Positions 42,943 to 45,050 of a DNA stretch of 64,000 nt are shown here, in pieces (the stretch's first letter is position 1; every line of letters starts with the position of its first letter). Location of the stretch: positions 124,001-188,000 of the forward strand of contig JAUXWT010000011.1 of assembly GCA_030681475.1 (NCBI GenBank), given 5' to 3'. The notes under the pieces were generated by a model. The model was given only the letters and a program-made list of their open reading frames with translations, was not told the DNA's origin and did not search any database. The stretch comes from Bacteroidales bacterium. Lineage in GTDB: Bacteria; Bacteroidota; Bacteroidia; Bacteroidales; FEN-979. Both the position numbers and the translations under genes were made by a program.

Positions 42943-43235
42943 TTACAGGAGCAGGTTTTCCTTTTTCAGGATACTCATGAAACGGGTTTCAGAGATGTAA
43001 TGGTCAGCCATCAATTTTCTCCGGGGACATACTCAAGGAAACCGACCGGTCGCTTCTGGCCTTCCACGTATAGCATTTTTATCCTTAAACCTTCCCGGAA
43101 CCTTTCCACCAGCCACTCAGCTTTAATCCTGTACGTCGGATGTTTCAGATTGATGAAACATATGGCCTGTGGGTGCTCCGACAAATTTGTTTCATCGACT
43201 GTAACTATTTGATATTGCTGCTCCGATTCCACCAT
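42943..43235 (-). pseudogene. Internally deleted GNAT/YoaP-like acetyltransferase gene
   Basis: ATG 43235 opens 74 codons (YQIVTVDETNLSEHPQ...VGFLEYVPGEN) matching the first third of YoaP-type GNAT proteins, which normally continue for ~170 more residues. The stop at 43013-43011 overlaps a new ATG (43011) whose 22-residue frame ADHYISETRFMSILKKEN resembles the C-terminus of such proteins. The simplest reading is an out-of-frame internal deletion joining both ends. Its 5' side is replaced by the tract 43231-43364. The C-terminal match is from memory. Confidence 0.6.
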
Positions 43236-43364
43236 TTCGCCATTTCGCTATTTCACCCTTTCGCTATTTCACCATTTCACCCTTTCGCTATTTCACCATT
43301 TCACCCTTTCGCTATTTCACCCTTTCGCTATTTCACCATTTCGCTATTTCACTACCTCACTACC
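43231..43364. repeat. CGCTATTTCACCATTTCACCCTTT tandem tract
   Basis: About 134 bases of alternating CGCTATTT, CACCATTT and CACCCTTT units. It starts at the relic ATG (43233-43235) and runs into the 3' end of the beta-lactamase-like gene, supplying its last codons and stop. Same family as 12965-13030, opposite orientation. Confidence 0.85.
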
Positions 43365-44582
43365 TATGATACCCAAATACTCCAGCACCTCCATAGTAAC
43401 CGTCTTCCTTGCTACGGCAAAATCATTAACCCGCTTCTGGTCTTTTGGTTCAACCAACGTCGCCAAAAAGAACACCTTGCCATTTGTTTCAAGATAGCCG
43501 ACAAACCAGCCGTAGTTGTTCCCGTTCCTGATCGCCCAGCCTGTCTTGCCGCTTAAGATGTAATCGCGGGTCGCTTCATTCACCATGATCTTCTTCACGG
43601 CCTTCATAACACTTCTTTTCAGCGGGAGTTTTTCTTCATAAAGTCGCCTGAGAAATTCCACCTGTTGCCGCGGGGTGATCCTCGAATTTCCCTCGAGCCA
43701 GAAGAGGTCGATGTTTCCGGGATGAACATCCATGCCGGGATAATCCATTTTGGCCAGGGTTGATTTCATGCGTTCAGGACCGATCTTGCGGGCCAATGCC
43801 TGGTAACATGGAACGCAGGATACCCTGAACGCCTCCCGTAAGGTGATATCCCGCTCCCACTGCGGGAGTCGCCGTTTTTCACCCTTCCATTTGAAAACAT
43901 AACCGGCGTCGATCACACCGGTTTCCAGTCCGATGAGTGTATTTGCAATCTTGAAGGTGGAAGCCGGCAGGTATCCGCTGTCCCATAGGGCAGGATTGTG
44001 ACCGATGTAACGGTCTTTTTCCGGATCGAGTATCAGCATGGTACCCGTCATCCCATATTTATCGAAGATGCCTTTGAGGATCATAGCCGAATCGGTCACC
44101 GACTTCATCGCGGTCACCTTTTTCATGATGTCATTGGGGACTGTCGCAGAGAGGACGTACTGCGCGATCTTCCACAGGCCGTTGTTATAAACCAGGATAC
44201 CTGAGCCCCTGCAAAGTCCCATCTGTGTGTCAAGCAGTTCATCGAACCAGGCTGTCTTATCATCATCACCGGTATAGATATTCCTGCTGACCGTTTTGAA
44301 TGTCCAGGTGGTTTTCCGGTCGAAATATGGTTTGCACCATGCGCCGAACTCAGCAGTAGTCCAATACTCGGTGGCATCAGTGCCAATGAACACCCCGTCG
44401 TTTGTCATGGCGCCGATATAGGCTGCGTGGTTGCCATCTGCAGCATCATGGTGCCACTGGTCAAGGAATTTGTCCAGGCGGGCGGCTAAAGTATCATTGC
44501 CTGACTGTGCACTGACGGTACAAACAGAAAGGCTGGCTGCGGCAACTGTACTCAGTAAAACGAAAAAAAACCTTTTCATCAT
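43344..44582 (-). CDS. NTF2-like domain fused to class D (OXA-type) beta-lactamase/transpeptidase domain
   Basis: 412 residues. A signal peptide ends near VSAQ (26). Residues ~28-150 match a SnoaL/NTF2-like fold (LDQWHHDAADGNHAAYIGAM...DGVFIGTDATEYW). Residues ~165-405 are a class D serine beta-lactamase domain with all main motifs: Ser208 in PASTFK (Lys211), SxV at 255-257 (SCV), FWLEG at 294-298 and KTG at 346-348. The usual YGN is YPG (281-283). Class D enzymes use a carboxylated Lys in STFK. Usual OXA proteins are ~265 residues without an N-terminal domain. It could hydrolyse beta-lactams or act as a sensor or peptidoglycan enzyme. The last residues (GSEVVK) lie in the tract. Start ATG 44582, or 44579. 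Confidence 0.88.
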   Translation of the reverse strand: MMKRFFFVLLSTVAAASLSVCTVSAQSGNDTLAARLDKFLDQWHHDAADGNHAAYIGAMTNDGVFIGTDATEYWTTAEFGAWCKPYFDRKTTWTFKTVSRNIYTGDDDKTAWFDELLDTQMGLCRGSGILVYNNGLWKIAQYVLSATVPNDIMKKVTAMKSVTDSAMILKGIFDKYGMTGTMLILDPEKDRYIGHNPALWDSGYLPASTFKIANTLIGLETGVIDAGYVFKWKGEKRRLPQWERDITLREAFRVSCVPCYQALARKIGPERMKSTLAKMDYPGMDVHPGNIDLFWLEGNSRITPRQQVEFLRRLYEEKLPLKRSVMKAVKKIMVNEATRDYILSGKTGWAIRNGNNYGWFVGYLETNGKVFFLATLVEPKDQKRVNDFAVARKTVTMEVLEYLGIIGSEVVK

Positions 44583-44726: not shown

Positions 44727-45050
44727 TTGTTTTTGAATTGCAGGAATAGTATAAATTTTCATATGATGAAATCCTTTCACATAAGCAGGGTAAGACCGTT
44801 TTTCAGGAATATCCCTAAGGAGATCAGACGAACTCCTAAAATGTATTTTAATGATCTTGGATTACGAAACTATTTTGTCAGAAATTTTGAACCCATTGGT
44901 TTGCGCGAGGATAAAGGTGCATTATTTGAGAATTTTATTTTCTGGCGCTTCCTTTACTTTAAAGAGAAGTATCCGGATATTCCTTTATCCCTGATTCATT
45001 TTTCAAATGATCTCTCATATCCTCTTGGAAAAGAATTAAAGTTTTTTTAA
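44727..45050 (+). pseudogene. Fragment of DUF4143-type AAA ATPase gene
   Basis: A short frame contains ISRVRPFFRNIPKEIRRTPK and YFNDLGLRNYFVRNF, then REDKGALFENFIF, the C-terminal DUF4143 region of ~380-residue ATPases. The AAA module with Walker motifs is absent upstream, and the C-terminus diverges and ends early. No start context or promoter is convincing. The 530-base gap 44583-45113 holds only this relic and a small repeat. Confidence 0.75.

Follow-up and report, generated by a model that had tools for sequence, protein, structure and literature searches.

The nearest described relatives of the protein considered here are single-domain class D β-lactamases, among them the Nostoc enzyme 6nhs, OXA-48, OXA-10 and the OXA-347/OXA-209 enzymes borne on Bacteroidota plasmids. 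Deacylation by class D enzymes depends on a carboxylated lysine, which is formed and guarded by a lysine, a valine, a tryptophan and a leucine of the class D motifs. An NTF2-like domain in front of a penicillin-recognising serine domain is found in PBP2a (MecA), a membrane-anchored transpeptidase in which this N-terminal domain is Pfam MecA_N. The class D features listed in PMC4790369 are Ser-Thr-Phe-Lys 70–73, Ser118, Trp164, Lys-Thr/Ser-Gly 216–218, Trp234 and Gly237, and the Tyr-Gly-Asn motif at 144–146, of which the variants FGN and FGE occur in accepted members. N-terminal NTF2-like domains (DUF3828/DUF3887/DUF4878) joined to β-lactamase, M23 and abhydrolase domains are described by Eberhardt et al. 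2013 (PMC3924330). A natural bifunctional class D–class C β-lactamase from Alaskan soil was reported by Allen et al. 2009, according to PMC3675766.

The gene analyzed here, on the minus strand at 43344..44582 of the window (the whole 64,000-nucleotide stretch of a Bacteroidales contig, to which all bare coordinates refer), joins a SnoaL_3/NTF2-like domain to a class D domain. With the single-domain enzymes it has in common the fold, the STFK, SxV and KTG motifs, the omega-region Trp and Leu, and the distal Arg; its class D half is 45% identical to 6nhs by structural alignment and 45–51% identical to plasmid-borne Bacteroidota OXA enzymes. It differs from them in carrying an additional N-terminal NTF2 domain of ~125 residues, in having YPG for YGN, and in the loss of the class D signal peptide. 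The fusions of Eberhardt et al. are likewise secreted, with NTF2 at the N-terminus and a hydrolase at the C-terminus, but involve other NTF2 families and a β-lactamase whose class is unnamed there. In the Alaskan enzyme, as PMC3675766 describes it, the class D domain is N-terminal and its partner is a second β-lactamase. The likeness to PBP2a lies in the order of domains; the present protein is not of the membrane-anchored transpeptidase type, and it has no Pfam match to MecA_N or PBP dimer domains at E<=1. No report of a SnoaL_3 plus class D architecture was found in the open-access literature. A sequence-only reading had allowed that the architecture might already be catalogued. The Bacteroidota survey found it not to be widespread; the general kind had been published in 2013 (PMC3924330). 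The SnoaL_3–class D pairing appears to be new, and NTF2–lactamase fusions and class D fusions in general were already reported.

The fusion gene and its class D half

The gene starts with ATG and encodes 412 amino acids with zero internal stops; the ORF, Pfam, NCBIfam and its orthologues define it as a signal peptide followed by SnoaL_3/NTF2-like and class D β-lactamase domains. A type I-like signal peptide (residues 1–25, VSA|QSGND; 44508..44582, minus strand) was recognized in the sequence by eye and coincides with a modeled helix at residues 3–18. It is followed, on the same strand, by the SnoaL_3/NTF2-like domain (residues 38–149; 44136..44471), a linking helix (residues 151–175; 44058..44132) and the class D domain (residues 170–405; 43368..44075). 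The genome (4.24 Mb, 98.7% complete) has one class D gene and one SnoaL_3 gene, and both are this fusion gene. Full-length orthologues occur in 14 other genomes, and the two-domain protein is intact in 14 of the 19 genomes of the window's genus, which bears out the earlier description of the gene as intact and confirms that the fusion is real. This same conservation rules out a chance origin of the two-domain ORF, and the number of independent assemblies with the fused gene rules out an assembly artefact.

The class D domain matches NCBIfam bla_class_D_main (NF012161, residues 170–405) by a narrow margin, at 252.6 bits against the curated equivalog cut-off of 250, and Pfam Transpeptidase (residues 201–381) at 118 bits. 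Among solved structures, the class D enzyme PDB 6nhs comes closest in sequence (E 4.6e-60 over residues 172–405), and the model also matches it by fold (Foldseek E 4.8e-26, rmsd 1.4 Å). The OXA fold is evident from 6nhs and OXA-48 together, with a TM-score of 0.93 by target length and an rmsd of 1.4–1.6 Å (Foldseek).

The motifs STFK, SxV, WLEG and KTG, with YPG for YGN, all lie where the sequence-only reading had put them (minus strand throughout), and their conservation was assessed over 64 aligned class D proteins. STFK (residues 208–211; 43950..43961) supplies the nucleophile Ser208 and Lys211, expected to be carboxylated, both invariant in 64/64. The S-x-V motif reads SCV (residues 255–257; 43812..43820; S in 64/64, V in 61/64). 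WLEG (residues 295–298; 43689..43700) contains the Trp that holds the carboxylated lysine (W in 64/64, L in 62/64), and KTG (residues 346–348; 43539..43547) keeps K and G in 64/64. Arg392 (43407..43409; R in 63/64) corresponds to the distal Arg with which OXA enzymes bind the carboxylate and aligns with the LRKSI Arg of OXA-10loop48. The feature list of PMC4790369 is matched by S208-T-F-K211, S255, W295, K346-T-G348, W359 and G362. At the YGN position stands YPG (residues 281–283; 43734..43742). Among the 64 relatives the Tyr is mostly kept (61/64), P replaces G in 13/64 and the third residue is variable. Because the Gly and Asn positions vary throughout the branch, YPG looks more like a feature of the branch than a sign of decay. 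With the residues for acylation and for the carboxylated lysine kept, established class D chemistry leads us to expect that this half is a working periplasmic β-lactamase.

The NTF2 half, its joining and its losses

The N-terminal domain matches Pfam SnoaL_3 (PF13474) over residues 38–149 with 78.3 bits (E 8e-22, cut-off 22). An AlphaFold2 model built from an 81-row alignment has a mean pLDDT of 91.6 for the full protein and 92.2 for the NTF2 part alone, the latter with the long first helix, shorter helices and curved sheet of NTF2-like folds (H7-23 H27-32 E34-41 E48-50 H51-63 E71-79 E85-94 E97-108 E111-121). By fold, this part matches CaMKII association/hub domains, SgcJ/SgcE6 and NTF2 (Foldseek E 4e-8 to 2e-6); by sequence, it has zero matches in the PDB at E<=1. 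The NTF2-like fold claimed earlier from the letters is thus upheld by both the Pfam match and the fold prediction. In the model, a single continuous helix (residues 151–175, pLDDT 71–96) leads from the end of the NTF2 domain into class D, with lower confidence (block means 71–83) over residues 141–170. From its alignment with stand-alone NTF2 tails, the helix is predicted to consist of the ancestral NTF2 protein's C-terminal tail, continued directly by class D helix 1.

Stand-alone relatives of both halves are available for direct comparison. The secreted, unfused SnoaL_3/NTF2-like proteins (PF13474) of Bacteroidota show about 60% identity over 165 residues to the fused domain in their sister-genus copies and share with it 27 invariant residues and the C-terminal tail; they differ in being unfused and were not seen beside a class D gene. 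The tail of one of them (L038, STIPNDQMKTITRNKAKTDSLFILKIKI) aligns gap-free with the fusion linker (ATVPNDIMKKVTAMKSVTDSAMILKGIFDKYGM); where the linker ends, the single-domain class D proteins start (ELKKIFDSYKV). This arrangement shows an end-to-end joining that cost the class D enzyme its own signal peptide. In the ancestry of the genus and a close sister, the mature part of a stand-alone class D gene was attached to a stand-alone NTF2 gene that kept its C-terminal helical tail.

One clade of the class D tree (support 100/98) unites the 15 fused copies with four single-domain copies of the same family. Three of the latter, from the window's genus, have in-frame deletions with different breakpoints. 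L043 lost about residues 34–147 and keeps the start and LMNKVTAMKSGTDSALILQGIF; L044 lost about residues 33–152 and keeps the signal peptide and TDHQGMATSIKPDADSASVLKSIF; L045 lost about residues 52–159 and keeps the first NTF2 helix and LQSGFDSALFLMGIF. L043 and L044 adjoin the same OMP-barrel gene and other neighbors as the fused copies. These three are later losses of the NTF2 part with the class D part kept; among relatives, then, the fusion was reversed on three or more occasions. A further class D copy without NTF2 (L046, sister genus) could predate the fusion or represent a fourth loss, as the tree does not settle the order within the clade. Stand-alone NTF2 copies from sister genera (L038, L042) cluster with the fused copies in a group without resolved branching, and some of them could be fission products.

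Both halves are constrained to a similar degree. Among fused pairs, the mean identity is 65% for NTF2 and 67% for class D, with a mean dN of 0.25 vs 0.25. In the close pair L031/L032, the only one usable for dN/dS since the others are saturated at synonymous sites, the ratio is about 0.29 for NTF2 and 0.13 for class D. Over 15 fused and 17 stand-alone copies, 27 NTF2 columns are invariant, many of them polar (D69, E72, R100, E115, C124, R125, K138, Y142 and N150). With a constraint equal to that on the enzyme half, and with all 27 columns invariant in the stand-alone proteins retained, the NTF2 half is a working, selected domain. The deletions show it to be dispensable in three lineages; the equal constraint argues that it is useful in most, and 'dispensable rider' may be too weak a description.

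Distribution and genomic setting

The fusion is confined to a narrow group in the genomes sampled. In the window's genus (19 genomes), 14 carry the fused gene, three the class D part only and two neither; in a sister genus, the fusion occurs in one genome, G040. Three further draws at the order, phylum and class level (393, 395 and 395 genomes) yielded no other fused match among the matches listed, for which the best four or fewer first-look candidates per genome were scored and a fused copy would rank first. In all, the survey covered about 1,200 Bacteroidota genomes, drawn as samples and mostly MAGs, and found the fusion only in those genus members and the one sister-genus genome. In the Bacteroidota draws, class D and this SnoaL_3 protein are each common by themselves, as separate secreted proteins. 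No adjacent unfused pair that could be a precursor was seen in them, and genomes with both genes carry them on separate contigs or at a great distance from each other. Each long open frame around either half was read individually, and none is a SnoaL_3–class D fusion. A pattern scan of 84,980 species genomes, which detects close relatives only, found 13 loci, all from the window's group; independent fusions in other phyla are possible. Of 72,556 plasmid records, none reaches 80% coverage of the query, and the viral contigs encode no relative of the fusion protein. The fusion is chromosomal and confined to a small bacterial group, and the best reading is that it is vertically inherited. A mobile resistance gene was considered and rejected, given conserved chromosomal neighbors and no fused copy in the plasmid or viral collections.

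Some public records titled Alphaproteobacteria (L012, SACF01000037.1) or Draconibacterium orientale (L008, L015) carry the Bacteroidales-type fusion locus. Their matching genomes belong to the window's genus, which makes the titles of these records look mistaken.

The chromosomal position of the fusion gene is conserved among relatives. Just upstream lies a fragment with a partial DUF4143 domain (44727-45050; profile positions 56–123 of 160), and just downstream a 74-aa orphan ORF without Pfam match (43011-43235). The 'neighbourhood of relics' proposed earlier is only partly right: it fits these two elements. A tandem repeat with units of 16/24 bases (ATTTCACCATTTCGCT; 43226-43352) has its end inside the final codons of the fusion gene. 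Its 20-mer has 14 occurrences, spread across many contigs of the genome, and the reversed control has 0; the repeat is a member of an interspersed repeat family.

The stand-alone SnoaL_3 protein has settings of its own. In three genomes of one family (L116:4354-8644, L117:1819-7843, L118:3417-7258), its gene is immediately flanked by a cyclomaltodextrinase-type gene on one side and, on the other, by an MFS transporter gene that it abuts or overlaps, and L117 also has a GH97 gene; these neighbors hint that the protein serves starch/maltodextrin use there. Among L099, L100, L101, L102, L103, L105 and L098:644-2257, this SnoaL_3 protein is found in tandem with a second NTF2-like domain, with one copy standing between a GDSL-type hydrolase and DUF1684.

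Other class D proteins of Bacteroidota also carry additional parts. Class D is combined with a glyoxalase-like domain in L092:1618-3279, a weak alpha/beta-hydrolase match in L093:648-2234, about 200 amino acids of no recognised kind in L094:1101-2477, a multi-helix hydrophobic N-terminus in L096:1014-2243 and about 145 extra N-terminal residues in L104:920-2065. The statement of the sequence-only reading that known OXA enzymes have a single domain is incorrect in detail, given these class D fusions and the published class D–class C enzyme (PMC3675766).

Function of the joined protein

We consider it probable that the gene encodes a secreted, periplasmic, intrinsic class D serine β-lactamase with a complete and still-selected NTF2/SnoaL_3 protein at its N-terminus. 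The protein would be exported to the periplasm by its N-terminal signal peptide, that of the class D enzyme having been lost. The class D part would be acylated at Ser208 and hydrolyze β-lactams with carboxylated Lys211 as the general base. The NTF2 part may act as an autonomous module that dimerises in the NTF2 manner and/or binds a small periplasmic ligand, riding with the enzyme through the continuous helix and presumably not needed for catalysis. Among the points against this reading, the class D score barely clears the cut-off (252.6 vs 250), and YPG stands where YGN is usual.

A rather unlikely alternative is that the joined state has no functional meaning, the halves keeping their old jobs and the joining having saved one signal peptide and one promoter. 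Such a view would agree with a fusion that is lineage-restricted and repeatedly undone, and with halves that are separate and unlinked in most Bacteroidota; it agrees less well with the intact gene in 14/19 genomes of the genus and with purifying selection on both parts.

It is improbable that NTF2 is a sensor or allosteric regulator whose cone binds a cell-wall fragment, a glycan or a β-lactam and opens or closes the active site through helix 151–175. The 27 columns, many polar, that are invariant in fused and stand-alone copies and the continuous interdomain helix would suit such a device, and Eberhardt et al. 2013 (PMC3924330) proposed that such fusions are ligand-regulated hydrolases. However, because the same residues are conserved in stand-alone NTF2 proteins, their conservation need not concern the enzyme; three sister genomes keep the class D enzyme without the NTF2 domain, and a linker length that varies by about 15 residues among fused copies fits tight coupling poorly. 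There is likewise little chance that the NTF2 cone is a working ligand site controlling or targeting the attached lactamase, for example through glycan or peptidoglycan fragments, which would make this a ligand-gated or wall-targeted class D enzyme; we know of no OXA enzyme with such a function. A 'protected lactamase', also suggested from the letters, is possible, although the NTF2 part is dispensable in three sister genomes.

That the class D half is a penicillin-binding or peptidoglycan enzyme, or a BlaR1-like penicillin sensor, instead of a hydrolase is very improbable: the loss of YGN and a BlaI/M56 pair on the same contig (C65:121.4-122.3 kb, 45 kb from the fusion gene) speak for it, but the class D equivalog cut-off is passed, Lys211, Val257, Trp295 and Leu296 are conserved, the nearest folds are OXA β-lactamases, there is neither an M56 domain nor a membrane segment beyond the signal peptide, and a simple pattern search of the window found no TACANNTGTA bla-type operator. 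A sensor and a peptidoglycan enzyme had both been raised before. The peptidoglycan enzyme is not favored, on the score and nearest structures just given, and the BlaR1-type sensor is rejected on that missing site and on anatomy: BlaR1/MecR1 have transmembrane segments and a fused M56 domain, and this protein has an N-terminal signal helix only, no M56 match and no adjacent BlaI. The BlaI-like repressor and M56 (BlaR1-like) protease pair itself (G000:C65:121390-122326) lies just outside the window and contains the genome's one M56.

The fusion locus documents the gain and loss of an extra domain by an intrinsic OXA-type enzyme; relatives of each parent gene are available, as are three naturally occurring deletions. 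The natural siblings without NTF2 offer a ready comparison for the effect of this domain on a β-lactamase. Environmental Bacteroidota have several kinds of class D enzyme with more than one domain; the single-domain rule for OXA enzymes therefore describes the clinical ones.
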